In this document: positions 20,198 to 58,194 of the stretch, one piece after another | Position numbering within the stretch: the first letter of the stretch is position 1 | Layout: each line of letters starts with the position of its first letter | Assembly (NCBI GenBank): GCA_028284005.1 | Contig: JANQSO010000012.1 | Location: 87,696 to 151,695, forward strand | Source of the DNA: Flavobacteriaceae bacterium | GTDB lineage: Bacteria > Bacteroidota > Bacteroidia > Flavobacteriales > Flavobacteriaceae | Reading direction: 5' to 3' | DNA: 64,000 nucleotides | The notes under the pieces: model-generated | What the model saw: only the letters and a program-made list of their open reading frames with translations | What the model was told of the DNA's origin: nothing | The model's database searches: none | Position numbers and translations under genes: made by a program

Positions 20198-22117
20198 ATG
20201 AAAAAACTCTTACTCCCAATTCTCTTAATGAGCTTTACTTTTGTAAATGCCCAAACACCTTGTACCGGTGGTTTTGCCGGTGGTTATCCATGTGATGGGT
20301 ATTTTTTGCAGTCTGAAATTTCATTAGCTGCAATGAGTGCCGGTTCGGGAAATGACTCCTGGGGTTGGACAGACCCTTCTAACGGAAAAGAATATGCCCT
20401 TGTCGGCCTTGACAACGGAACAGCTTTTATAGATATTTCGAATCCTACAAGTCCGATCTATCTTGGTAAACTTCCAACACATACCAGCAGTAGTATCTGG
20501 AGAGATATAAAAATATATAACGACCATGCATTTGTGGTAAGTGAAGCATTTAACCATGGGATGCAGGTATTTGATTTAACAAGATTGAGAAATGTAAACA
20601 ATCCACCTGTTACTTTTACCGAAGATGCACACTACAACGGCTTTGGAAGTGCCCATAACCTGGTAATCAATGAGGATAGCGGTTATGCCTTTGGTGTTGG
20701 AACATCAACATTCAACGGTGGTCCGCACTTTGTAAACATTCAAGACCCTATCAATCCTGTTGCTGCCGGTGGTTATGCCATGGATGATTACAGTCATGAT
20801 GCGCAAGTGGTTACGTATTGTGGCCCTGATGATGATTATGCAGGACGTGAAATTTTGATTGGAAGTAATGAGAATGAAGTTGTCATTGTTGATATTACAG
20901 ATAAAGCAAATCCTGTTGGTATCTCTACAATTTCTTATACAAATGTTGGATATACCCACCAGGGATGGTTCACTGAAGATCAACGGTATTTCATTTTAGG
21001 TGATGAGACTGATGAAATAAACATTGGATTTAATACCAAAACGATCATTTTCGATTTTAACGACCTGGACAATCCACAGTTCTCTTTTAATTTTACCGGG
21101 CCTACATCTGCTTCAGACCACAACGGATATGTAAAAGGAACCAAATATTATATGGCCAGCTACCGTGCAGGATTACGTGTTATGGATGTTAGCGATATAG
21201 CAAACGGGAACATGACCGAAATAGGGTATTTTGATTCTCATCCTTCAAGCAATAGTGTGAATACAAATAATGGTGCCTGGAATGTTTTTCCATACTTTGA
21301 CAGTGGTAACATCATCATAAGTGACCAAGATGCCGGATTTTTACTCGTGAAGGCTATCACCGATGATACTACTGCTCCAACTGCTGTTTGCCAGGATGCA
21401 ACTGTTTCACTTGATGCTAACGGAAATGGTTCCGTAACTGCCGCAGAAATAAACAATGGTTCAACCGATAACAGTGGCACTGTATATTTCATCCTTTGTG
21501 AGGATACTTTCGATTGTTCAGACCTGGGGACAAATACCGTAGAATTGGAAGTTTATGATGATTTTGGAAACAAAGATTTTTGTACCGCTACTGTAACAGT
21601 AGTAGACGAGATAGATCCTGTGATCACTTGTCCTTCCGGACTTACCGTAGTTTACGATTCGGGGAATCCTTTTTACACTCTTGAAAATTTTGATACAACC
21701 GGGGACGTTACAGCAACCGATAACTGTGCAGCCGGCCTTACAATAACTCAAAACCCGGTTCCGGGAACTCAATTAACAGTTGGAGTTCATACAATAACTT
21801 TTGAAGTTACGGACGGATCTGGAAATACGGATACATGTTCTTTTGACCTAACAGTAGAAGAAGAACTTGGCACAACAGATTTTGAACTTGAAAAAGGATT
21901 GGCTATTTTCCCTAATCCTGCTTCAGAAGTAATTACAATTGCTTCAAAAAATGCAACTCTTTCTACTGTAGAAGTAGTTGACATATCCGGAAAACGTATT
22001 TATACTAGCAATAATATTGATTCGGAAACAACGACAATAAATATCTCAGCATTCTCTAAAGGATTGTATTTTGTAACTATAAATAATGCTGTCACAAAGA
22101 AGATTATCAAAAAATAA
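20198..22117 (+). CDS. Choice-of-anchor B (LVIVD-repeat) protein with HYR domain and T9SS tail, paralog 1
   Basis: 639 residues: signal peptide (1-19, FVNAQ), the choice-of-anchor B domain (about 20-385) and extra hyalin-repeat (HYR)-type material (about 390-555, with DEIDPVITCPSG and VTDGSGNTDTCSFDLTV). A C-terminal T9SS type A sorting domain follows (IFPNPASEVITI...GLYFVTINNAVTKKIIKK). The repeats carry the LVIVD-type FIDISNPTSP and VIVDITDKANP signatures. Conserved motifs include NDSWGWTDP, HGMQVFDLTRLR, HDAQVV, YTHQGW and DHNGY. It should be exported and fixed to or released from the cell surface. The HYR part is absent from the other four paralogs. Function unknown; the MbnP/MbnH pair downstream hints at a metal-linked role. 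Confidence 0.88.
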   Translation: MKKLLLPILLMSFTFVNAQTPCTGGFAGGYPCDGYFLQSEISLAAMSAGSGNDSWGWTDPSNGKEYALVGLDNGTAFIDISNPTSPIYLGKLPTHTSSSIWRDIKIYNDHAFVVSEAFNHGMQVFDLTRLRNVNNPPVTFTEDAHYNGFGSAHNLVINEDSGYAFGVGTSTFNGGPHFVNIQDPINPVAAGGYAMDDYSHDAQVVTYCGPDDDYAGREILIGSNENEVVIVDITDKANPVGISTISYTNVGYTHQGWFTEDQRYFILGDETDEINIGFNTKTIIFDFNDLDNPQFSFNFTGPTSASDHNGYVKGTKYYMASYRAGLRVMDVSDIANGNMTEIGYFDSHPSSNSVNTNNGAWNVFPYFDSGNIIISDQDAGFLLVKAITDDTTAPTAVCQDATVSLDANGNGSVTAAEINNGSTDNSGTVYFILCEDTFDCSDLGTNTVELEVYDDFGNKDFCTATVTVVDEIDPVITCPSGLTVVYDSGNPFYTLENFDTTGDVTATDNCAAGLTITQNPVPGTQLTVGVHTITFEVTDGSGNTDTCSFDLTVEEELGTTDFELEKGLAIFPNPASEVITIASKNATLSTVEVVDISGKRIYTSNNIDSETTTINISAFSKGLYFVTINNAVTKKIIKK

Positions 22118-47914: not shown

Positions 47915-49225
47915 TTATAATCCTGCCCGTTTAGCCTGAACAGATGACTTATAAGGATTCCATGGATCTTCAAAAGAGCGTTTAAAGAAGAACTCCTTAT
48001 AATAAGCACATGTACGCACAATACGCAAATATGTTCCCGTGTATAATGTCATGAAAATAACATAGGGCCATAGAAAACGCTCTTCTTTGCTACGCTCAGA
48101 GAAAAAAGAAATACTGAGCATTTGTACATAATTCATTACAAAATACAATGTGAAATTCATTGGAATAATAAATTGAAGTGAACCACTATAGTTAAAACAA
48201 ATATCAATAATGTATATCCACCAAAGAATGTCAAGAATTACATTATAAAATACGTTTTCTGACAGTGAAAAAAAGGTGGCCCAATTAAAATTTGCATTAG
48301 GGAAATACACATCTTTATGCTTACGAAGCCTAAAGCGAATTATAGATTTATCCCAACGTAATCGTTGTTTGGTCAATATTTTAAATTTTGAAGGAGCATT
48401 GGTAAGACATACTGCGCTGGGTTCAAAATAAACCTTATAACCAGATTTCCTGATCTTCACAGTTATATCACCATCGAGCCCCGGGCCTATGTCCCAGCCT
48501 CCTATAGCATCTGTAGCTTCTTTTTTAAATGCTCCAAAAGCTCCCGAAATTATTTTATAAATCCCCAGATAAGAAGTAACTATACGACCTACAGATACTG
48601 TTTTTAAGTACTCTATTGCCTGTAATTTTGTACATAAGCTTTCTTTATAATTACGAACCTTTACATTACCTCCCACTGCAGCAATACGATTGTCCATAAA
48701 AAAAGGGATAAGTATATTTTCTATCGCATCCCGGTCGAATGAACAATCTGCATCAAGATGCACTATGTATTTCCCTTTACTAAAGCGTAAGGCAAGGTTT
48801 GCAGCACTTGCCTTCCCTCCCCGCATTTCATTACGAATAAACATATCGATAAGTCCCAGTTTTTCAAGATTCTTCCCAATGGTAGGAGTATCGTCATCAG
48901 AGCCATCGTCTACTATTATAAGTTCAAAATTAGTGAAGGTCTGTTCGGCTAAAGATTTGGTAAGCTTATACAAGTGTTTCCCTTCATTCTTTCCTGGAAT
49001 AATTATAGATACAAACGGGTTTTCATTAAAAAGTGCTTGCCTGGCTTTTTCGAACCGGGCCTTTCTCTTTTTTCTTGTAAGGGTAAAAATTGTATATACC
49101 ACGTAATCGATCATTATGTATCTTGTAAACTCAAACAATACAAAATACCAGAATACGCGTATGAACTTCTGCAAACCTACGGCACTCCAATAATTGAGAT
49201 ATTCGGGTATTATTTGTTCCAGCAT
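47915..49225 (-). CDS. Processive family 2 glycosyltransferase (polysaccharide synthase)
   Basis: 436 residues. N-terminal membrane helices (about 22-50), then a GT2 catalytic domain with VDDGSD (105-110), DAD (158-160), the GLDGD acid near 251-253 and the processive-synthase signature Q287-RLR-W291. Three to four membrane helices follow (about 312-420). The layout matches inner-membrane synthases that make and export a beta-linked polymer (hyaluronan, Alg8, cellulose type). Its start overlaps the TackOD1 stop (TAATG). With the dehydrogenase gene upstream it probably polymerises a uronic-acid-containing sugar; the polymer is unknown. Confidence 0.92.
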   Translation of the reverse strand: MLEQIIPEYLNYWSAVGLQKFIRVFWYFVLFEFTRYIMIDYVVYTIFTLTRKKRKARFEKARQALFNENPFVSIIIPGKNEGKHLYKLTKSLAEQTFTNFELIIVDDGSDDDTPTIGKNLEKLGLIDMFIRNEMRGGKASAANLALRFSKGKYIVHLDADCSFDRDAIENILIPFFMDNRIAAVGGNVKVRNYKESLCTKLQAIEYLKTVSVGRIVTSYLGIYKIISGAFGAFKKEATDAIGGWDIGPGLDGDITVKIRKSGYKVYFEPSAVCLTNAPSKFKILTKQRLRWDKSIIRFRLRKHKDVYFPNANFNWATFFSLSENVFYNVILDILWWIYIIDICFNYSGSLQFIIPMNFTLYFVMNYVQMLSISFFSERSKEERFLWPYVIFMTLYTGTYLRIVRTCAYYKEFFFKRSFEDPWNPYKSSVQAKRAGL

Positions 49226-50604
49226 TACAAAGTGTTTAAAAGCAGGTCTATCTCATCCTCTTTTTTAAGTTGGTGTGTATGCATAACAACTGGCATCGTG
49301 TCTGTTAAGTTATCGGTCAATAATTTTGAAAGATTGTACCGTATTTGTTCAAGGCGTTCACAATTGCTGGCCAATGTATCTGGCAATAAGAAGTAAAACT
49401 TATTGTAGGCTTCGGAATACAATAGATCAACATCTGTGAGATAGGATTGAATTATTTTTTCCATCTCTGCCTGAATTGCAGCCTTCATATCGCTGTTGAA
49501 GAACTCTATCTCATCATTTTGAAAGGCAATACTTCCCAATGTACTTTGTGTACCAGTAGCTGCTACTCTTTTTAATTCCTGCCGGGCCATTAGTTTGAAT
49601 ATGGGAAATGAAATTCCTTTTAACGATGCCGGGTGGGAATGTTTTTCTTCCTTTAAAGAAGTATGATAGTTCAGCAACCATTGTTCACCTTTAGCCGTTA
49701 TACTGTATTCTCCTATGGTTTTTTGAAGTAACTCCGAAAGTGAATTCTCTTTCTCGCAGTCAAAACAAGCAGCTTGTATTTGTGGGTTTTGAAATTCATT
49801 GGTACAGCTGTTACATAAAAATATTGCCGAAGGCTTGTCGTAATCTATACCTATGTGGCGTAATTTTTTATCACACTTGGGGCAAGAGAGGTGATCTCCT
49901 TTTTTAAAATCGTCCTCCGGAGCTACATGCGCACATACAAAATGATGGATCATATCCCGGGCCTGTATATCTGCATCATGACAACTGGGGCATATCTCTT
50001 TAAAATTCAGGTAATTACCAGAACAGTTTTTACATAAGTGAACGTGATCTTTAAACGTACTTGTTATAAGTCCACCATGCTGCATGGTTTCTAATGCCTT
50101 TAATATCCCAAGGGAATCATCACCATTCCACAATGACAGCATAGGAAAATAATAGCCTATTTTACTTTTGCGGGATGTAAAGGGCGTTAAAAGGCGCTTG
50201 CGGGAATAAAGAAATGCCAGAGTTTTAAATTGTATTTGAACCTCGTATACAGACAAATTGAGGGGAGTTATAATTTGACCTAACCGTTTGTTTATTTTGA
50301 TCGCCTTTTTTACAATTGTATCGACCTGTGCTATATGCACCTTACCATCTGTATGTGATAGTAGTTCTTCCTGAAAAGTATGGAGTTCATTTACAAAAAG
50401 CGGAATTAAACTCAAGGTCCCTTGTTCACAACGTACTTTTTTTACAATTTCCAAAAGCGTCTTTTCGGAATCGGTATTAACAACAATTCCGGCATATTGC
50501 GCCCAGTCTTTTGGCAGATCACTCGTACGGTATACGACCAGTAATTCATGCCCCTGGGCGGTTAATGTTTGCTTGGTTTCGTTATTTCTAAGTACATTCA
50601 ACAT
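49225..50604 (-). CDS. TackOD1-type zinc-ribbon protein with pseudo-receiver-like and degenerate GGDEF-like ends
   Basis: 459 residues, cytoplasmic. The middle part (about 170-300) has five CxxC pairs (C191/194, 205/208, 241/244, 264/267, 280/283) plus HHFVCAHVAPEDDF and LRHIGIDYDKPSAIFLC, matching the TackOD1 metal-binding output domain first described in thaumarchaeal signalling proteins. Residues 18-95 look like a receiver fold without the phosphorylation Asp. The C-terminal region has VDLLYSEAYNKFYFLLPDT, which resembles a GGDEF domain that has lost its catalytic motif. These two end assignments are my inference. Encoded between the sugar dehydrogenase and the synthase, it is a likely regulator of polymer synthesis. 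Confidence 0.75.
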   Translation of the reverse strand: MLNVLRNNETKQTLTAQGHELLVVYRTSDLPKDWAQYAGIVVNTDSEKTLLEIVKKVRCEQGTLSLIPLFVNELHTFQEELLSHTDGKVHIAQVDTIVKKAIKINKRLGQIITPLNLSVYEVQIQFKTLAFLYSRKRLLTPFTSRKSKIGYYFPMLSLWNGDDSLGILKALETMQHGGLITSTFKDHVHLCKNCSGNYLNFKEICPSCHDADIQARDMIHHFVCAHVAPEDDFKKGDHLSCPKCDKKLRHIGIDYDKPSAIFLCNSCTNEFQNPQIQAACFDCEKENSLSELLQKTIGEYSITAKGEQWLLNYHTSLKEEKHSHPASLKGISFPIFKLMARQELKRVAATGTQSTLGSIAFQNDEIEFFNSDMKAAIQAEMEKIIQSYLTDVDLLYSEAYNKFYFLLPDTLASNCERLEQIRYNLSKLLTDNLTDTMPVVMHTHQLKKEDEIDLLLNTL

Positions 50605-50625
50605 AATACTATTGTAAAAAGTAAC

Positions 50626-51993
50626 TTACAGGGTTAGATAATTGTGGCCTGCCGCTAAATGCCTGAAGGTTCCTCGAATATCAAAAACAACTCCTCCGGG
50701 AGCTAGCCGGGGTTCCAGAGTTTCAATGTTCTTATATACCGAATGGTTCACTGCCATTACAATTACGTTAAAAGTGCCATCTATTTCATTATCGGGAATA
50801 AGGCTAAACCCATATTCATGCATCACTTCATCCGGTTTAGCATATGGATCTTCCACAACTACCTCAAATCCTTTATCGATAAGGGAAGCAACTATATCTG
50901 CAACCTTAGAATTTCTAATGTCATTTACATCTTCCTTAAAAGTAATTCCCTTGATGAGAACACGTTTAGGTTCATTTCCCAGCATTAGGCGTGTGCGTCC
51001 TGCTATTTTCTTTACAATATGGCCTACCATACTCTCATTGGTTTTACGTACCTGTTCCAAAATAGCCGGCTTACAATTAAAATGATAGGCGCGTTCTATC
51101 AGGTAGTAGGGGTCAACTCCTATACAGTGGCCCCCTACCAATCCTGGAAAATAGTTCTGGAAGTTCCACTTGGTACCTGCAGATTCCAATACATCTTTAA
51201 TAGGAATATCCATCGCTGAAAAGAGTGTAGCCAACTCATTCATTAAACCAATATTAACATCTCGTTGAATATTCTCCACTACTTTTGAAGCTTCCGCTAC
51301 TTTAAGGCATGAAGCTTCATGTACTCCCGCAGTAACAATAGCTCCATAGACTTTTGAAATTAGCCTTAAAGCCTCGGGTGTACTTCCAGAAACTACTTTT
51401 TTAATTTGTGTAAAGGTGTGCTTTTTGTCTCCCGGATTGATCCGTTCGGGAGAATAACCTACTGTAAAATCCTTGTTGAATTTCAATCTCGAAATACGTT
51501 CCAGAACAGGAATGCATACTTCTTCCGTGCAACCCGGATATACTGTAGATTCAAAAACCACACAATCTCCTTTTTTTAAGTTTTTTGCAACCATAGCAGT
51601 AGCAGCTTTAAGGGGGTTAAGGTTGGGGCGCTTGTGTTTATCTATAGGTGTGGGGACTGCTACAATATATAATTTAGCATCTGCAAGGGTCTTTTGATCA
51701 AAAGAGAATGTAATGTCTTTGTCATCAAAATCTTTTGAGGTTAATTCTTCACATGGATCTTTATGCTGTAATAGCTGTACAATTTTTTTACTGTTAATAT
51801 CAAATCCGGTAACCTTAAATTTACTGGCCATATGGAGCGCTAACGGCAGCCCTACATATCCTAACCCTACGACCGCTATTGAAGCTTCTTTTTCCTCCAA
51901 TTGCTCAAAAAGAGATTGTTTTATGTAGGCTAGTTTTGGGCCTTTTACGGGCTGATATTTTTCTTGTGTCTTTAATGCTAGTCCTGTTCTCAT
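50626..51993 (-). CDS. Nucleotide-sugar 6-dehydrogenase (UDP-GlcNAc/ManNAc dehydrogenase type)
   Basis: 455 residues. Oxidises C6 of a UDP-sugar to a uronic acid with NAD. The Rossmann motif GLGYVG starts at residue 43, the catalytic Cys is C290 in GGHCIGVDPYYL, and KGITFKEDVNDIRNS is in the C-terminal domain. YSPERINPGDK resembles the WbpA/TviB branch, which acts on N-acetylhexosamines, more than plain UDP-glucose dehydrogenase; the exact substrate is uncertain. An N-terminal extension of about 30 residues precedes the Rossmann fold. 21 bases before the TackOD1 gene, so it supplies the precursor for the synthase. Confidence 0.92.
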   Translation of the reverse strand: MRTGLALKTQEKYQPVKGPKLAYIKQSLFEQLEEKEASIAVVGLGYVGLPLALHMASKFKVTGFDINSKKIVQLLQHKDPCEELTSKDFDDKDITFSFDQKTLADAKLYIVAVPTPIDKHKRPNLNPLKAATAMVAKNLKKGDCVVFESTVYPGCTEEVCIPVLERISRLKFNKDFTVGYSPERINPGDKKHTFTQIKKVVSGSTPEALRLISKVYGAIVTAGVHEASCLKVAEASKVVENIQRDVNIGLMNELATLFSAMDIPIKDVLESAGTKWNFQNYFPGLVGGHCIGVDPYYLIERAYHFNCKPAILEQVRKTNESMVGHIVKKIAGRTRLMLGNEPKRVLIKGITFKEDVNDIRNSKVADIVASLIDKGFEVVVEDPYAKPDEVMHEYGFSLIPDNEIDGTFNVIVMAVNHSVYKNIETLEPRLAPGGVVFDIRGTFRHLAAGHNYLTL

Positions 51994-52071
51994 AATATTA
52001 TATTTTTAATTGATTGTTTTTATTTGAGTACTAAATTAGAAGGGTTAATGCTTCTGTTTTTATTTTTTAGC

Positions 52072-52086
52072 CAGATTGTAAATCTG
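52072..52086. promoter_or_regulatory. 15-bp palindrome upstream of the sugar dehydrogenase
   Basis: CAGATT-GTA-AATCTG, a perfect 6-bp dyad with a 3-base centre, ending 4 bases before the LytTR-like repeat pair at 52091. It lies where promoter or operator elements for the dehydrogenase operon are expected. Confidence 0.35.
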
Positions 52087-52090
52087 TATA

Positions 52091-52121
52091 GGTGATTGGA
52101 ATTTATTCGTAGATGAATGGT
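52091..52121 (-). promoter_or_regulatory. LytTR-like direct repeat pair upstream of the dehydrogenase operon
   Basis: Minus strand: ACCATTCATC (52121-52112) and TCCAATCACC (52100-52091), 8 of 10 close matches, period 21. The core resembles the AlgR/LytTR site CCGTTCGTC. The pair is about 98 bases before the dehydrogenase start. Related pairs stand upstream of the tolC-like gene and the signalling operon. Confidence 0.6.
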
Positions 52122-52155
52122 TTTTATCTTATTGTAAAAAAGAGTTTTCTATACA

Positions 52156-53181
52156 TCATATTTTCCCCAATTGTATTTTTACATTAAGCTTGTGATAGCT
52201 TGCCCATTGAGTTTTTTCCATATCATTAATGGGAATTATTTCTGCCAGTATATTGCGTTCGGTAGGTTCATAGGTCTTCTGGAACTCATCCGGAGATTCA
52301 TAAGTGGCGATATAGATTTTTTGTATACGTCCTTTTGTTGTTGATTGATCGGGAAACAATACCTTTACTTCCTGACCCTGCTTTATATCGTTTATATCTT
52401 TCAGGTCAAAATAAGCTTTGATAAATACCACATCGGTATTGTGTATGGTCATAACGTTCTCAGTCTTATAACAAGCCTCCTGTTCATTTTTTAAAATTTG
52501 ACCTATAACACCGTTTATAGGTGACAGATAATTATTCCGGTAGTTATTCTTACCCTCCCTTTGGGTATCCGAAGAAGTATCACTAAAATTCATCTTCTTC
52601 AATTTTGACAATAATTGTATCTCATTTCGAAGTAATTCCGTAGTGATCTCTGCTTCATTTAACTGCTGTATTACCTCATCCAACTTCTCTTTTGTGTATA
52701 CATCGAGCAAAACAAATTTTTCAAATCGGTCTTTGGTATTTCTTAAGTAGTTCCTTTTTTGGACCTGCGCCTTTAGCTTTAGTTCCTTTTGTTGTATTTC
52801 AAAAACAAGTTTTTGTACATCCTGTAATCTGTCTTCTTTGGCTTTTCGCTCACGGAGTATAGCAGAAGCATCATTATCAAAAACACTTTCTTTATAATAG
52901 AATAATAATTGGTCCCTGGATACTGTATCACCTTCGGTGATCTTTATGCCCAACAAGCGAATGTCCTGAGTGAAGTTTACATCTACTTTTTCCATTTGGA
53001 TCTGCCCATCTCCTTCAATTATAGCCAGTTTCTTATAAACGTACCGCAATAGAAATCCCAGCACCAAAAGAATAAGTGCGAGATATAAAACGCGGTCCAG
53101 GTTAAATTTTTTCTTCTTAATGACAGGCTCTTTGAGCGTTCGGATAATAGCGCCTTTGCGCTGAAAAGAAAAGGGTCTCAT
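52156..53181 (-). CDS. HlyD-like membrane fusion protein
   Basis: 341 residues: a short basic cytoplasmic N terminus, one membrane helix (about 30-48), a lipoyl-like beta part, a long coiled coil (about 85-200) and a C-terminal barrel (YLSPINGVIGQILKNE, VFIKAYFDLKDINDIKQGQEVKVLFP). It should bridge the inner-membrane synthase and an outer-membrane channel. It resembles the periplasmic part of Alg44-type proteins but has no PilZ cyclic-di-GMP domain. It starts 4 bases after the TolC-like gene, clearly co-transcribed. Confidence 0.85.
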   Translation of the reverse strand: MRPFSFQRKGAIIRTLKEPVIKKKKFNLDRVLYLALILLVLGFLLRYVYKKLAIIEGDGQIQMEKVDVNFTQDIRLLGIKITEGDTVSRDQLLFYYKESVFDNDASAILRERKAKEDRLQDVQKLVFEIQQKELKLKAQVQKRNYLRNTKDRFEKFVLLDVYTKEKLDEVIQQLNEAEITTELLRNEIQLLSKLKKMNFSDTSSDTQREGKNNYRNNYLSPINGVIGQILKNEQEACYKTENVMTIHNTDVVFIKAYFDLKDINDIKQGQEVKVLFPDQSTTKGRIQKIYIATYESPDEFQKTYEPTERNILAEIIPINDMEKTQWASYHKLNVKIQLGKI

Positions 53182-53185
53182 AAGT

Positions 53186-54703
53186 TTAAGTTTGGGTTTT
53201 AAGTAATTGATATTCTTGTTGTATCCATTTGTGCAATGAAATTTGGGTTGTTTGGGTGTTCAGTATATACACTGTAAACCCCGCTGCTTCCCAATAAGCC
53301 TTCAGGTATTCTTCTTCTGCCAAAATGTAGACTTTGCCAATATCTTTAGCTTTTAAAAATTCCATTTGAAATGCAATATCAAAACCACTTTCACTACTGG
53401 TAATCAATACTTCCGGTTCTTCGTCTTGTTCAAATTGGAAAGGAACGACCTCTAATAATTCGCTCAGTTCATATAAGTGAACTATAGTGGTATACAATTG
53501 CATTTTAAGGCGTAGTACATTTTCAAGTATTTCAAATTGTGCTATCTGTAGTTTTAATAGTTCAAGGCCCGTTTCTTGTTCTTGCAGTTCTTTTTTTATG
53601 ATACAAAGTGTACGTTTGTTCTCTTGTACCAATACCCATTTTTTGTATTGGTTTTTAAGGTCACGTACTTTTTCACGATAACCATTATAATAGGTCATTT
53701 GTGCATTCTGTGTACCCAACTGTTTATCTAACCGGATAGCCTGGCCACGAAGAATCTCTATCTTCTCTATTTGCCGTCTCCTTTTAAAGCTTAACGGCAT
53801 TCGCAGCCTTAATCCAGCAGAAGCAAAATCACGTTGGTTCATATTAGTTTGTAACCAATTGTAGTTTGTATATACAGAGAAAGAGATATTGTTCAACCAG
53901 TGATGCTTGAGCCTTATATTTTCTATCTGTATGGAATCTGTAAATACATTGCTGGAAGTATTGATACGACTTATGTTTTTAATAAATAAAATGGGGAGCT
54001 TTTCATTTTTGTAATACCCTGAAACACTATCGATGATTTGGTGATTTAGCGTTTGAGTATTTTCTAACTCAGCTTCTGTAACTAAAATCTGTTGACTTAT
54101 ATTGATGAAATCTTCCCGTTTGACTCGTTTTTGGTGATACAAACCCGATAGTATATCAAAATAGCTATGTAGAAAATCCAGCTTGTTTTGAAATAGTGAA
54201 ATAAGCTCTTCATTAATACTATATGTATAATCGATGCGAAACTGTCTCCGCCAGTTTATCTTGTCATGCCTGTTCTTTTGTTGTTGCAATATTGCTATTT
54301 CATTATCGAATTGTATTGCTTTATGGCGATTTTGTACGAAACCGGACCGCAGTATGTTCCATTCCAATTCGGTTTTTATACGACTGCGGGTATAATTATT
54401 GGTTTCTTCATCCAAATCGTCCTTAAAATTGTATTGTGCATTCGCTTTGAAAACCAGCCCCAAATCATCATTTATTTTTTCTTTTTGAAGTTTTTTTAAC
54501 TGAATTTCATGAGCCACGTACGTACTATCCAAAGCCTGGTATGGCCTAAACCGGAAAGATGATCGTTCTGCAGGAAACACAAGTTTTGAGTTGGTCTCTT
54601 TATAAAGTGTTTCTGAAGCTATGATCAGTTCATCTATGGTCTGCGCAGGTGATACGTGGCAAACAAGAAAAGACAGGACCCCATAAATAAATAACTTTTT
54701 CAT
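53186..54703 (-). CDS. TolC-like outer-membrane protein with an extra C-terminal domain
   Basis: 505 residues: signal peptide (1-20, VSPAQ), two long helical stretches with beta segments between them (about 60-225 and 310-415, in the TolC duplicated pattern). The beta parts include LVFKANAQYNFKDD, SFSVYTNYNWLQTN and AGLRLRMPLSFKRR. A non-TolC-like domain follows at about 428-505 (EVLITSSESGFDIAFQMEFLKAKDIGKVYILAEEEYLKAYWEAAGFTVYIL), alternating strand/helix as in a small Rossmann-type fold. It probably forms the export duct for the polymer with the HlyD-like protein. The family call rests on architecture and neighbours. A LytTR-like repeat pair lies 45 bases upstream. Confidence 0.72.
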   Translation of the reverse strand: MKKLFIYGVLSFLVCHVSPAQTIDELIIASETLYKETNSKLVFPAERSSFRFRPYQALDSTYVAHEIQLKKLQKEKINDDLGLVFKANAQYNFKDDLDEETNNYTRSRIKTELEWNILRSGFVQNRHKAIQFDNEIAILQQQKNRHDKINWRRQFRIDYTYSINEELISLFQNKLDFLHSYFDILSGLYHQKRVKREDFINISQQILVTEAELENTQTLNHQIIDSVSGYYKNEKLPILFIKNISRINTSSNVFTDSIQIENIRLKHHWLNNISFSVYTNYNWLQTNMNQRDFASAGLRLRMPLSFKRRRQIEKIEILRGQAIRLDKQLGTQNAQMTYYNGYREKVRDLKNQYKKWVLVQENKRTLCIIKKELQEQETGLELLKLQIAQFEILENVLRLKMQLYTTIVHLYELSELLEVVPFQFEQDEEPEVLITSSESGFDIAFQMEFLKAKDIGKVYILAEEEYLKAYWEAAGFTVYILNTQTTQISLHKWIQQEYQLLKTQT

Positions 54704-54747
54704 GGGATAAAAGTAATTTTTGAGAAGAAGTACAATCGTTATTTATC

Positions 54748-54778
54748 GATGGTTGGGTCGTTGGTGTAGGTGAATGGT
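54748..54778 (-). promoter_or_regulatory. LytTR-like direct repeat pair upstream of the tolC-hlyD unit
   Basis: Minus strand: ACCATTCACC (54778-54769) and CCCAACCATC (54757-54748), period 21, 45 bases before the tolC-like start. The first half-site is nearly identical to the one at 52121-52112. Confidence 0.55.
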
Positions 54779-54884
54779 TATTTTGTATAGATAAACTTTT
54801 AGCCCTGTATCAATACAACAAGCTGCCTTTCAATTAAGGGGTTGAGTACCAAAAAATTGAATATCCGGTAAATACTATAAAAGA

Positions 54885-55577
54885 TTATAGCAAATTTAAA
54901 CGACGCATGAGCTCAGAGCGATTAGCACGGCTCACCGGAATAATGTCTTGTTTAATCAAGACACTATTATCTTCTATATCAACAATCTTTGTTGTATTAA
55001 TGATATAGGATCGATGTACCTTAAGGAAAAGACTATCCGGGAGCTTTTCTTCTATCTTTTTAAGTGTAGCGTGTACGAGATAGGTTTGCGTTTCGGTTTT
55101 AATATTTATGTAGTCTCCTTTAGCTTCTATAAGATAAATATCCGGGATGTTAATTTTTACAAGTCTCCGGTCAATATTTACATAAAGATCATTTGTGGAG
55201 GGTGCCTCTACCGAAGATCGTACTATTGCTTTCGATTGGGCTTTTACAATTGCTTTATTAAAGCGATCTGTCGTGATTGGCTTTACCAGATAATCAATGA
55301 TGCAATCGTATTCGAAAGCATTCAATGCAAAGTTTTCATCACTGGTAGTGATAATGATCTTAGGCGGCGTTTTTAGAGTCTGTATGAAGTCGAACCCCGA
55401 AAAAGAAGGCATATGAATATCGAGAAAAACCAGATCTACTTCTTCCTGATTGAGATATTTTATGGCTTCAATTGCACTTGGGAACGATGCAACAGTATTT
55501 ACATTGGGATTCTGGCTACAAAGTTGCTCTATAATGGAACGTGCCGTAGTTTCGTCGTCTATAATAATACTCTTCAA
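54885..55577 (-). CDS. LytTR-family response regulator
   Basis: 230 residues. An N-terminal receiver (phospho-acceptor D53 in LVFLDIHMPSFSG, acidic pair near residues 7-8, Lys in YLVKPI) is joined to a C-terminal LytTR DNA-binding domain (about 130-230; IYLIEAKGDYINIKTETQTYLVHATLKKIEEKLP, FLKVHRSYIIN). LytTR proteins bind pairs of short direct repeats about one double helical turn apart, as AlgR, AgrA and VirR do. It is the only DNA-binding protein of the H-NOX operon and the last gene, overlapping the HPt gene by 4 bases. It is the obvious candidate to bind the repeats found here. Confidence 0.95.
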   Translation of the reverse strand: MKSIIIDDETTARSIIEQLCSQNPNVNTVASFPSAIEAIKYLNQEEVDLVFLDIHMPSFSGFDFIQTLKTPPKIIITTSDENFALNAFEYDCIIDYLVKPITTDRFNKAIVKAQSKAIVRSSVEAPSTNDLYVNIDRRLVKINIPDIYLIEAKGDYINIKTETQTYLVHATLKKIEEKLPDSLFLKVHRSYIINTTKIVDIEDNSVLIKQDIIPVSRANRSELMRRLNLL

Positions 55578-55897
55578 AGGCTTGTTAGGTAATTTTCTAT
55601 ATTCTCTAAAGTACTAATAAATTTTGAATAGCCGTTCGATTTTCCTTCCCTTAATTGATTTTCCAACTCTCTTGCATTTTCATAGCCTTTTTCCAATCCC
55701 AAAATATTAATTTTGTGTTTGAGTTTGTGTACAAGCTCTGCTGCCTTTAAATAGTCTTTTGAATCATATTGGTTTAAGAACATTGTTCTCTCTTCTGGAA
55801 ATTCTTTTTTAATGATCCCAATTAATTTTTGAATATAAGTAGGATCACCTCCTGCGATCTCTTTAATATAAGATAGATTTGGTTCTTCTTGCATCAT
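55574..55897 (-). CDS. Stand-alone HPt phosphotransfer protein
   Basis: 107 residues, a four-helix HPt domain. The phospho-accepting histidine is H57 in AAELVHKLKHKINILGL, with a GLEKGYENARELENQLREG helix after it. It can carry a phosphoryl group between receivers. Its 4-base overlaps with both neighbours (kinase upstream, LytTR regulator downstream) imply a dedicated relay. The only receivers in the operon are the CheY-like first gene and the LytTR regulator. Confidence 0.88.
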   Translation of the reverse strand: MMQEEPNLSYIKEIAGGDPTYIQKLIGIIKKEFPEERTMFLNQYDSKDYLKAAELVHKLKHKINILGLEKGYENARELENQLREGKSNGYSKFISTLENIENYLTSL

Positions 55898-57087
55898 GTT
55901 TTTTTTAAGGTAAAGTAAAATATTGTGCCTTTTCCCGGCTCAGAATCTACCCAGATATCACCCTCATAAAACTCAACGATCTTTTTTACAATGGAAAGCC
56001 CTATCCCTGTACTATGCTCATTATCTTCCAAAGATTCAAAAATTTCGAAAATCTTCTTTTGGTAAGCTTTTGCTATCCCTTTACCATTATCCCTAACATA
56101 AAATTCCCAATGATCCACTTTCTCTTTAAACCCAACAGCTATATTCCCTTTATTTTTATTGATGCTACTTATCGCATTGTTAAGCAAGTTTTGAAATAAT
56201 TGTTGCAATCTGGGTGCATCCCCTTGTATAATCGGGAGTGGATTTACTATGCTTACAGATATATTTTCGGGGATATGTAAGATATCTAAGATCTCGTTCA
56301 CCAGAAAATTAAGATCTATTTCTTCTTTTTTGGATATTTCATCAAGACGGGAATATTTTAGAATACCGTCAATAAGATTATCCATTTTGTAAACTTTATT
56401 CAACAAAAGGTCAAATGTTTCCTGTCCTTTTTCATCAATAGCTTCGGCATAGTCTTCCCGTAACCAGTTGATCAAGGTGTCCATACCCCGCAATGGTGAT
56501 TTTAGGTCATGAGATACAACATGAGCAAAATCATTAAGGTCACGGTTTTTGCGTTCCAGGTTTTTTGCTATGGCCAGCTCTTTTGTAATATCTCTTACAA
56601 TTCCCTGGGCAGCAATAGGCTTTTGATTTTCATCTTTAATAATACTGGCATTGATATGTACATTACGTACACCCTTGTTTTTAGTAATGACCCTTCCCCG
56701 GTAGTCTGAAAATGTACCTTCTTTAAGTAATTGAGAAAAAGACTGCATTGCATAATCAATATCTTCTTTGTAAATAAGTTTTACTACGTTTACTTTTTCG
56801 GTTATAGGATCGTATCCAAATAATGAAACAGCACTATGGTTCATTTTTATAACATTGCCTTCGATGTCCATTAATACGTAAGCATCAACCAGGTTATCAA
56901 ATAAACCTTTAAGTTCGGTACTTTTTTCATTGAGGTCTCCTTTCAGAACCGTATTTTGCTGCTCCAGCTTTTGTGAAAGTATATAGAGTTCTCTCGATTT
57001 TTCTTCAAGAATTGATTCTGCCTGTTTACGGGCGTTACGTTCCCGCTCTAATGCTTTTTTTAAAATGTCCAGCTCGTTCTTAGCCAT
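55894..57087 (-). CDS. Soluble PAS-domain sensor histidine kinase (H-NOX partner)
   Basis: 397 residues without membrane segments: a coiled coil (1-60), one PAS domain (about 62-170, DAYVLMDIEGNVIKMNHSAVSLFGYD), a HisKA domain with H193 in DFAHVVSHDLKSPLRG and an ATPase domain (RDNGKGI, STGIGLSIVKKIVE). Its frame overlaps the H-NOX gene by 8 bases. In other bacteria H-NOX proteins bind and inhibit a co-encoded soluble kinase when they hold NO. It has no receiver of its own; the HPt and receivers are separate genes here. Confidence 0.93.
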   Translation of the reverse strand: MAKNELDILKKALERERNARKQAESILEEKSRELYILSQKLEQQNTVLKGDLNEKSTELKGLFDNLVDAYVLMDIEGNVIKMNHSAVSLFGYDPITEKVNVVKLIYKEDIDYAMQSFSQLLKEGTFSDYRGRVITKNKGVRNVHINASIIKDENQKPIAAQGIVRDITKELAIAKNLERKNRDLNDFAHVVSHDLKSPLRGMDTLINWLREDYAEAIDEKGQETFDLLLNKVYKMDNLIDGILKYSRLDEISKKEEIDLNFLVNEILDILHIPENISVSIVNPLPIIQGDAPRLQQLFQNLLNNAISSINKNKGNIAVGFKEKVDHWEFYVRDNGKGIAKAYQKKIFEIFESLEDNEHSTGIGLSIVKKIVEFYEGDIWVDSEPGKGTIFYFTLKKT

Positions 57088-57625
57088 CTGTCTTAATAAT
57101 ACTGAATTTTACTTCGGTCCCGTCCGGTTTAATTTTTTCCATTAGGATCTCAGTTTTTGTATTGAAATGCTCACATGTCTTATGCATTAAACCCAGGCCA
57201 AAGCTATACATCGCCCTGCTTGAACGGTAGATCATTACCAAGTGGTTTTGAGTTCTTTCAAGAGTTTCAAAAGTTGGCAACTCGGCATCCGGATATATCT
57301 TACGCACTTCTATATGAATATGATCTTCTACCGATGATAGTAACTCTATTGGGTCCTTATAGCTTTCTATAAGCTTAGGGTAACTTTCGAGTATTACATT
57401 AAAAAAATGTGTTGCATAAGTATACAGCAGATCATCAATAGACAACTTTGTTTTCTTGCTTAATTGCTGAAGTAGTCCCAGCATTTCTGAAAACGAATAT
57501 GTTCCAACAGCTGTATAGCTTCCTTTTGAAGGCAGGTCCGCCTTTTCAATGATCTCTTCTACGGTAGCAAGTCCAAATTTATTTTCGACCAACTCCAAGA
57601 ATTCAGTAAAAATAATTCCTTTCAT
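57080..57625 (-). CDS. H-NOX haem nitric-oxide-binding protein
   Basis: 181 residues, the normal length of a stand-alone H-NOX. MKGIIFTEFLELVENKFG is the typical N terminus. H104 in DHIHIEVRKIYPDA aligns with the proximal haem ligand, and Y133-x-S135-x-R137 (YRSSR) is the invariant haem-propionate motif. The distal pocket has no obvious Tyr at the position used by oxygen-binding members, so a selective NO sensor is likely, though I cannot model it. It lies between a CheY-like gene (one-base overlap) and the kinase (8-base overlap). Confidence 0.93.
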   Translation of the reverse strand: MKGIIFTEFLELVENKFGLATVEEIIEKADLPSKGSYTAVGTYSFSEMLGLLQQLSKKTKLSIDDLLYTYATHFFNVILESYPKLIESYKDPIELLSSVEDHIHIEVRKIYPDAELPTFETLERTQNHLVMIYRSSRAMYSFGLGLMHKTCEHFNTKTEILMEKIKPDGTEVKFSIIKTDG

Positions 57626-58032
57626 TATACAGCAAGTTCGTTAGAAGACCAGTAGCCTATAATTGTTTTTATCTTAGTTTTGTAATCCTCATATTTAAGA
57701 GGTTTCATTATATATCCGGCGATCCCGGTTTTATAACTTTCCTTTACATCTTCTTGATTGTTTGATGTAGTAAGTATAACTACAGGGATGTACCGTAGTT
57801 TTTCATCTTCTTTAAGAATTTTAAGAAACTCAAGGCCATTCATTTTAGGCATGTTAAGGTCCAACAGGATCAAATCTGGGAAAAAAGTTCCGGGTTCCAA
57901 TAGTTTTAAAGCTTGTTCGCCGTTCTTTGCTACGCTAACACTATGTTTACCAGGGAAAGTAGTTAAGATACGTTTAAATTTTACAGCCTCAATAGCATCA
58001 TCTTCTATTAATAGTATTGCAAGGTCCTTCAT
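57625..58032 (-). CDS. Single-domain response regulator (CheY/Rcp1-like)
   Basis: 135 residues, only a receiver domain: acidic pocket E10-D11-D12, phospho-acceptor D58 in LILLDLNMPKMNG, Thr in LTTS and Lys in YIMKPL. The insertion FPGKHSVSVAKNGEQALKLLEPGTFFPDLI is of the Rcp1 type often paired with PAS or phytochrome kinases. No output domain. As first gene of the operon it may receive phosphate from the PAS kinase and pass it to the HPt protein, or act as a sink. Three 22-bp repeats lie 59 bases upstream. Confidence 0.93.
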   Translation of the reverse strand: MKDLAILLIEDDAIEAVKFKRILTTFPGKHSVSVAKNGEQALKLLEPGTFFPDLILLDLNMPKMNGLEFLKILKEDEKLRYIPVVILTTSNNQEDVKESYKTGIAGYIMKPLKYEDYKTKIKTIIGYWSSNELAV

Positions 58033-58090
58033 TAGGGATTTTGTTTATATACAAAAATGCTCAAATTTTATATGAAAAGTATCTTATTTC

Positions 58091-58144
58091 GGTGAATTGT
58101 AGGTTTTGTTTCGACGAATAGTAGGTTTTGAGTCGACGAATGAA
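58091..58144 (-). promoter_or_regulatory. Three 22-bp-period LytTR-like direct repeats upstream of the H-NOX operon
   Basis: Minus strand cores TTCATTCGTC (58144-58135), ACTATTCGTC (58122-58113) and ACAATTCACC (58100-58091), spaced exactly 22 bases. The spacers are also alike (AAAACCTAC recurs). The core is close to the AlgR site CCGTTCGTC. Position 59 bases before the first gene suggests autoregulation. Confidence 0.7.
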
Positions 58145-58194
58145 CTTAAGGTATCGTTAAATGGGGGTTTTATCTATTTATTTTATCGAAAGCC

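Follow-up and report, generated by a model that had tools for sequence, protein, structure and literature searches.

Control of surface growth by nitric oxide (NO) through H-NOX haem proteins has been described mainly through cyclic di-GMP (c-di-GMP) and quorum sensing (PMC8738867, PMC6769237; papers are cited here by PMC number for the passages concerned). In the Shewanella and Vibrio pathways, H-NOX lies beside a histidine kinase and the output is surface growth, and in Vibrio harveyi HqsK signals to LuxU by an HPt-type transfer to a response regulator (PMC6769237, PMC8738867). A similar sensor and relay are encoded in the stretch analysed here, a window of 64,000 nucleotides from a Flavobacteriaceae bacterium (GCA_028284005.1; 3.13 Mb in 15 contigs). 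Its ten genes at 47915-58032, all on the reverse strand, encode a CheY-like receiver, an H-NOX protein, a histidine kinase, an HPt protein and a LytTR response regulator, followed by a TolC-like channel, an HlyD-like adaptor, a nucleotide-sugar dehydrogenase, a TackOD1 protein and a family 2 glycosyltransferase (GT2). Whereas c-di-GMP enzymes or quorum-sensing regulators form the end point of the Shewanella and Vibrio pathways, this one leads to a LytTR regulator with predicted sites at polymer genes, and its genome gave no GGDEF match at E ≤ 0.001, a search that degenerate domains such as that of the TackOD1 protein escape. The locus probably encodes a predicted NO-responsive relay whose LytTR regulator would switch the adjacent, likely exopolysaccharide genes through tandem 9-bp repeats.

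On the polymer side, the poly-N-acetylglucosamine (PNAG), alginate and Pel systems resemble the locus in combining a processive GT2, a sugar-nucleotide dehydrogenase and envelope export proteins, and Pel has a GGDEF-like accessory protein, PelD, which the TackOD1 protein matches in Foldseek; the accessory protein here, in contrast, is TackOD1 with a degenerate GGDEF domain, and export would use a TolC/HlyD pair. The gene algD encodes a nucleotide-sugar dehydrogenase, and we know of no H-NOX or HPt relay in the AlgZ/AlgR system of Pseudomonas aeruginosa. As in our locus, a LytTR regulator acts there on polymer genes, at algD, the first gene of the alginate operon, which contains algK and algE where the window has the TolC/HlyD pair (PMC4064291). 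In CoxC and RcoM, a diatomic gas controls transcription via a LytTR domain that acts at direct repeats (PMC11347149), but the gas is CO and the targets are CO-oxidation genes, and CoxC unites sensor and DNA-binding domain in one protein, while the window has a separate H-NOX, for which NO is predicted, and a predicted phosphorelay. What appears to be new, as judged from sequence, is an H-NOX/kinase pathway whose predicted output is a LytTR regulator acting on polymer genes. The initial annotation knew of no description of such wiring in Bacteroidota, and none was found in the open-licence literature searched, largely at the level of listings and passages; in one paper pairing the terms H-NOX and LytTR, the LytTR passage concerns AgrA nitrosylation.

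Relay and repeat arrays at the locus

The ten genes, their domains and their single strand, as read in the initial annotation, were all recovered, the named domains by profile search (Table 1). The relay genes overlap by 1, 8, 4 and 4 bases in order from cheY through lytTR, and gaps of 181 bp (54704-54884) upstream of the TolC-like gene and 162 bp (51994-52155) upstream of the dehydrogenase gene likely divide the ten genes into three transcription units. The same tandem repeat stands upstream of each of these predicted units.

Table 1. Genes and repeat arrays of the locus, in window coordinates
Feature	Position	Strand	Length	Evidence or sequence
Four tandem LytTR-type half-sites before cheY	58089..58162	-		ATTTAACGA, ATTCGTCGA, ATTCGTCGA, ATTCACCGA; periods 21, 22, 22; tandem scores 32.0, 26.6, 23.7
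CheY-like single-domain receiver, first gene of relay operon	57625..58032	-	135 aa	Response_reg 83.8 bits
H-NOX haem protein, predicted NO sensor	57080..57625	-	181 aa	HNOB (PF07700) 135.7 bits, cut-off 25.5
PAS-HisKA-HATPase_c histidine kinase	55894..57087	-	397 aa	Pfam domain matches
HPt phosphotransfer protein	55574..55897	-	107 aa	Hpt 25.8 bits, narrowly above cut-off 24.6
LytTR response regulator, TTG start	54885..55577	-	230 aa	LytTR 78.8 bits, Response_reg 67.3 bits
Three half-sites before TolC-like gene	54746..54796	-		GTTTATCTA, ATTCACCTA, AACCATCGA; period 21; tandem scores 23.2, 22.3
TolC-fold outer-membrane channel	53186..54703	-	505 aa	AlphaFold2 model, Foldseek
HlyD-like periplasmic adaptor	52156..53181	-	341 aa	HlyD_3 39 bits
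Two half-sites before dehydrogenase gene	52089..52118	-		ATTCATCTA, AATCACCTA; period 21; tandem score 27.1
Nucleotide-sugar 6-dehydrogenase	50626..51993	-	455 aa	UDPG_MGDP_dh; TIGR03026 362 bits, above cut-off
TackOD1 protein with zinc ribbons	49225..50604	-	459 aa	TackOD1 189.4 bits
Processive-type GT2 membrane glycosyltransferase	47915..49225	-	436 aa	Glycos_transf_2 94 bits

The arrays have the form of a LytTR operator, with 9-bp direct repeats and 12-13 bp spacers at all three promoters. A canonical LytTR site consists of two 9-bp direct repeats 10-13 bp apart (PMC11347149), and one LytTR class is described with a spacing of mostly 12 bp and with autoregulation (PMC6193735). The repeat consensus CCATTCGTC and the AlgR core CCGTTCGTC disagree at a single base (PMC4064291), and in most relay cassettes direct repeats of the form ATTC(G/A)(T/C)C(G/T)A lie upstream of cheY with a period of 21-22 bp. 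A step from LytTR to the polymer genes had been inferred in the initial annotation, and the repeats upstream of the TolC and dehydrogenase genes, as candidate binding sites, lend that step independent support.

A weight matrix for the 9-bp tandem repeat was trained only on the cheY promoters of 51 loci lacking TackOD1, so cheY scores are not independent evidence; the site threshold of 10 was set while the scoring script was written and was kept after its output had been seen. Across the window, tandem scores of at least 12 were found only at the cheY, dehydrogenase and TolC promoters and at one weak intragenic match (13.5 at 21010, within the gene at 20198-22117), against a mean of 0.2 matches and a maximum of 1 in 20 Markov-shuffled windows. 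Across the genome, the 22-bp form occurs without mismatch in two places, both at cheY, and the best match to the 21-bp form (1 mismatch) occurs in a single place, at the dehydrogenase gene. Allowing up to 2 mismatches brings the total to 15 places, six at the locus, all intergenic, and nine elsewhere, all inside open reading frames (ORFs), as judged by mechanical ORFs of at least 100 aa; in the borderline case, L189, the ORF start lies upstream of the match and looks like that of a normal protein. For the 22-bp form, the control with the pattern reversed yielded 6 matches as well, so the raw genome counts are not significant, and it is the quality and the position of the matches that carry weight.

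All four phospho-sites of a His-Asp-His-Asp relay are present and conserved: kinase H193 in all 95 kinases from the loci read, CheY D58 (together with K110) in 67/67 aligned sequences including that of the window, HPt H57 in 60/61 and LytTR receiver D53 in 72/72. In three relatives (L132, L156, L164), kinase, receiver and HPt are fused in one protein beside H-NOX and LytTR (the fused HPt of L164, at 20.3 bits, falls under the Pfam cut-off), and the CheY of the window scores 24.5-29.7 bits against the fused receivers, compared with at most 13.8 bits for the LytTR receiver. Because the sites are conserved, the modules are fused in relatives and CheY resembles the fused receivers, the likely order of phosphate transfer is from kinase H193 to CheY D58, HPt H57 and LytTR D53.

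The H104 and YxSxR residues of H-NOX, named in the initial annotation, are also present and conserved in relatives, with H104 in 67 of 68 sequences, Y133 and S135 in all 68 and R137 in 64, the window included throughout. The nearest solved structure is PDB 6bdd (260.7 bits), which a molecular dynamics study names as the H-NOX of Kordia algicida and terms NO-sensing (PMC7356049). Residue 71 is Ala in the window and in 33/68 sequences overall and Gly in 31/68; the same study cites a title on a native Ala in the glycine hinge (PMC7356049).

Sites and linkage in related genomes

TackOD1 loci, which lay outside the training set of the matrix, served as a held-out test. They came from a scan of one genome per species in 84,980 species, in which 85 loci were found and 80 kept. 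Sites precede the TolC gene in 11/22 LytTR-linked loci versus 0/33 unlinked ones, the dehydrogenase gene in 15/21 versus 0/8 and a DUF4114 gene in 7/12 versus 0/7 (Fisher p = 5.9e-6, 7e-4 and 0.017, a guide only, as related loci are counted as independent). The HlyD, TackOD1 and GT2 genes have no sites, linked or unlinked, and the remaining genes have them in 1/128 linked and 0/412 unlinked cases. Among the 22 linked loci is L107, from an Altibacter metagenome-assembled genome (MAG) that is probably of the same genus as the window. The genome of L114 holds another copy of the polymer genes (L112), which has neither the relay nor a site. In ten linked genomes, matches with at most 1 mismatch number 22, versus 0 for the reversed control, and comprise 7 at cheY, 2 at TolC, 7 inside ORFs, 2 at a metallo-beta-lactamase-fold gene (L116) and 4 in other gaps.

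Some further observations concern the genes with sites. The metallo-beta-lactamase-fold gene (L116:15620-16474) lies near the polymer locus, and its upstream repeat arrays are the one strong site among the 128 genes above. The DUF4114 cluster (c11, e.g. L109:12794-14758), a protein of about 660 aa with a C-terminal DUF4114 domain, is found in 21/80 TackOD1 loci. One of the four matches in other gaps, in a Tenacibaculum genome (G530, L238:340-1440), places the tandem repeat before a FIST (NosP-like) gene that is well away from the polymer locus.

In 15/80 loci, H-NOX is no more than about 10 kb away from TackOD1, namely in 11 of Flavobacteriaceae (L108-L111, L113-L116, L121, L141, L162), three of Saprospiraceae (L155, L156, L164) and one of Prolixibacteraceae (L132); the gene-neighbourhood check proposed in the initial annotation thus finds the linkage again, in varied gene orders, and the refuting outcome named there, a linkage that is not conserved in related genomes, did not occur. 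In L141, the dehydrogenase, TackOD1 and GT2 genes are upstream of cheY and TolC-HlyD is downstream of LytTR; in L132, the relay is on the opposite strand, tail to tail with GT2; and the gene orders of L048 and L063 differ as well. Among 149 sampled Flavobacteriaceae genomes, H-NOX is present in 56 and TackOD1 is above its cut-off in 4 (9/395 in an order-wide draw); all four TackOD1 genomes hold H-NOX, adjacent in the three whose contigs allow it. The genome-wide H-NOX search took 44 of the 80 TackOD1 loci and found H-NOX in 24 of these genomes, whose completeness is unstated (23 above cut-off).

The full relay cassette (CheY, H-NOX, kinase, HPt and LytTR on one strand) was seen in 48/57 H-NOX loci read, from which a weak second H-NOX match in G076 (E 4e-4) was left out; several of the nine loci without it (L044, L046, L047, L050, L063, L067, L084, L085, L087) are cut by contig ends. 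In loci without TackOD1, sites precede the genes for a Por-secreted protein (c13, 14/15), a STAS protein (c26, 6/7), a flippase-like protein (c20, 5/12) and a GT1 (c22, 6/9), so surface polymers or proteins recur as neighbours of this LytTR; an adjoining TPR-BCSC_C gene (c12) has sites in 0/14. Protein clusters were named from one scanned member each, the DUF4114 cluster from two. TPR-BCSC_C, flippase-like and GT1 genes often adjoin the cassette without TackOD1, as in L072, L064, L077 and similar loci.

Of the 57 loci (L031-L087), 27 have a FIST gene (FIST N and FIST C, as in NosP) after the first kinase gene, and in 26 of these 27 a second kinase gene comes behind it. Two predicted NO sensors may thus feed one HPt/LytTR pair in FIST-bearing loci, and FIST genes near H-NOX in one cluster are also mentioned in PMC8738867. 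The genome of the window has no FIST (NosP) match at E ≤ 0.001, and the 80 TackOD1 loci include no member of the FIST cluster.

Several observations weigh against control of the polymer genes by the H-NOX relay through these repeats. At the locus, two of the three TolC half-sites are weak (the outer ones 2.5 and 3.4 bits, the central one 19.8 bits). At up to 3 mismatches, the 21-bp pattern has 87 genome matches versus 75 for its reversed control, and 5/21 of the 3-mismatch places given a locus are intergenic; that level is uninformative, and therefore only matches with at most 2 mismatches were used. TAnnTTTG is the -7 element of the Bacteroidota sigma factor; it lies downstream of the repeats in 6/61 promoters (59 of cheY and the TolC and dehydrogenase promoters of the window) versus 2.2 expected by shuffling, too few for promoter placement. 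In relatives, 11/22 LytTR-linked loci score below 10 before TolC, and six linked loci (L117, L132, L156, L162, L164, L175) have no site at any TolC, dehydrogenase or DUF4114 gene that was scored; the site pattern thus fails for divergent LytTRs. The four intergenic matches outside the locus in other linked genomes mean that the regulon in relatives is not confined to the locus. The H-NOX cassette mostly occurs without TackOD1, as the counts of 56/149 and 4/149 genomes show. On an H-NOX tree of 68 rows (without L141 and L162, copies of L048 and L063, and without rows under 150 aa), the polymer neighbour needs 8 changes against a shuffled mean of 14.4, with bootstrap unsettled; the polymer neighbour was therefore gained or lost several times. 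Finally, seven stretches hold LytTR but no H-NOX (L107, L117, L122, L124, L127, L129, L175). L107 begins inside LytTR and is uninformative on H-NOX, and the genomes of L107 and L175 were outside the H-NOX search; the genomes of the other five were searched and gave no H-NOX match, and L122, L124, L127 and L129 keep sites before polymer genes. In the Balneolaceae loci L122, L127 and L129, these are before the TolC and dehydrogenase genes, with DUF4114 sites in L122 and L127.

The scarcity of TackOD1 beside the cassette and the eight changes of neighbour on the tree would fit a relay and polymer genes that are neighbours by chance or shared mobility, with LytTR acting elsewhere. This explanation is very unlikely: the association recurs across gene orders and families, LytTR-type sites stand at polymer promoters in linked loci only, and the nine other matches in the genome of the window all fall inside ORFs.

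It is also conceivable, though rather unlikely, that LytTR does control the polymer genes while H-NOX reports oxygen, redox or CO, or serves mainly another output. The Balneolaceae relatives, with LytTR and sites kept in genomes without an H-NOX match, speak for this, as do their scanned kinases (L129, L122), which have PAS or PAS and GAF domains, and some H-NOX proteins are described as signalling redox (PMC8738867). However, H104 and YxSxR are intact, the nearest solved structure belongs to an H-NOX called NO-sensing, and NosP, whose architecture the FIST protein of the 27 cassettes shares, is described as a NO sensor (PMC6769237, PMC8738867). Kinases of L117, L122, L124 and L129 have PAS domains, some also GAF. 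Because LytTR loci exist in genomes without an H-NOX match, the LytTR-polymer link appears to be wider than H-NOX, which looks like one of several plug-in sensors.

Polymer genes and the TackOD1 protein

No Pfam family matches the TolC-like protein at E ≤ 0.01, yet its AlphaFold2 model (mean pLDDT 84.4) matches TolC, SilC and CusC in the PDB by Foldseek (E about 1e-11, best 4e-12), in agreement with the name first given to it. The GT2 protein contains a QRLRW motif, which we take to mark a processive-type enzyme. Two identities of the polymer were considered and dropped because both NCBIfam models score well below their cut-offs: PNAG, for which GT2 reaches 175 bits against PgaC_IcaA (TIGR03937, cut-off 422), and Vi, for which the dehydrogenase reaches 377 bits against TviB (cut-off 592).

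The function of TackOD1 is called obscure in PMC5847659. In the AlphaFold2 model of the window protein (pLDDT 89.3), the N-terminal part is possibly receiver-like, to go by the order of strands and helices, and the C-terminal part matches the GGDEF domains of SadC, GcbC and DosC, as well as PelD, in Foldseek; this GGDEF-like fold lacks the GGDEF motif. RxxD is the inhibitory-site motif of GGDEF-type proteins, and in the alignment the window has T-D-V-D at the position where some relatives have R-x-x-D. Of the features of a PelD-like c-di-GMP receptor, the degenerate GGDEF fold is thus present and the RxxD site absent. GT2 follows TackOD1 directly in 77/80 loci; of the three exceptions, L148 and L172 are without a GT2 call, their stretches ending close behind or inside TackOD1, and in L174 the frames overlap. 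The TackOD1 protein of the window is 93% identical to that of the Altibacter MAG (L107), Altibacter being a member of Flavobacteriaceae, so the window probably comes from that genus.

The TackOD1 family also has more distant members. In Legionella (L176, L178, L182, L184-L186), TackOD1 is followed by a more distant GT2. A shorter TackOD1 protein, with open frames of 318-324 aa, is found in L094, L096, L098-L100, L106, L170, L171 and L173; in the last three, GT2 starts about 960 bases behind the start of TackOD1, beside HlyD, in a stretch without H-NOX.

The matches to GGDEF domains and PelD, together with the constant position of GT2 directly after TackOD1, would suit a polymer controlled chiefly post-translationally, with the GGDEF-like domain of TackOD1 binding a nucleotide as PelD does and the H-NOX relay being secondary. 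We regard this as decidedly unlikely, given that the protein has neither the GGDEF motif nor the arginine of an RxxD-type site and that the genome gave no GGDEF match at the threshold above, which degenerate domains can escape. Such control would also be compatible with transcriptional control by LytTR, the two not being exclusive. C-di-GMP as the link was likewise considered and then lowered, the genome being without a GGDEF match. The cyclase or phosphodiesterase partner of a NO-to-c-di-GMP H-NOX pathway was found neither among the ten genes nor by the GGDEF search; EAL and HD-GYP domains are absent from the ten genes, and no genome-wide search was made for either.

Proposed mechanism and significance

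In the mechanism proposed for the window, the binding of NO by H-NOX would alter the activity of the kinase, most likely inhibiting it, by analogy with Shewanella and Vibrio. Phosphate would pass from the kinase through CheY and HPt to LytTR, and phosphorylated LytTR would activate three operons: its own, that for export (TolC-HlyD) and that for synthesis (dehydrogenase-TackOD1-GT2). Activation is assumed because most regulators of the LytTR type act as activators from sites upstream of -35 (PMC11347149). GT2 would then polymerise a polymer, probably containing uronic acid, and pass the product to the HlyD/TolC conduit, while the TackOD1/pseudo-GGDEF protein might be a co-regulator of the synthase or an assembly factor. 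Since NO would most likely inhibit the kinase and LytTR regulators mostly activate, NO might lower polymer expression, a direction that we give with low confidence.

A broader proposal, plausible but tentative, is that flavobacteria and their kin have a c-di-GMP-free route from NO to polysaccharide, in which H-NOX, joined by NosP in many relatives, would drive a four-step phosphorelay, a dedicated LytTR operator code would mark nearby surface-polymer genes (TackOD1/GT2 here, flippase/GT1 elsewhere) and a new class of synthase would have TackOD1 as its obligate partner. The names of two carriers, Winogradskyella haliclonae and Tenacibaculum holothuriorum, suggest marine animal hosts, and a link of the locus to host NO is speculation. 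TackOD1, an obscure domain, gains a context, with a GT2 synthase directly after it in nearly all loci. In this genome, where no GGDEF protein was detected, the task that is mainly described for c-di-GMP and quorum sensing would fall to a transcription factor whose DNA sites can be read, and the regulon could therefore be listed from sequence and tested one promoter at a time.

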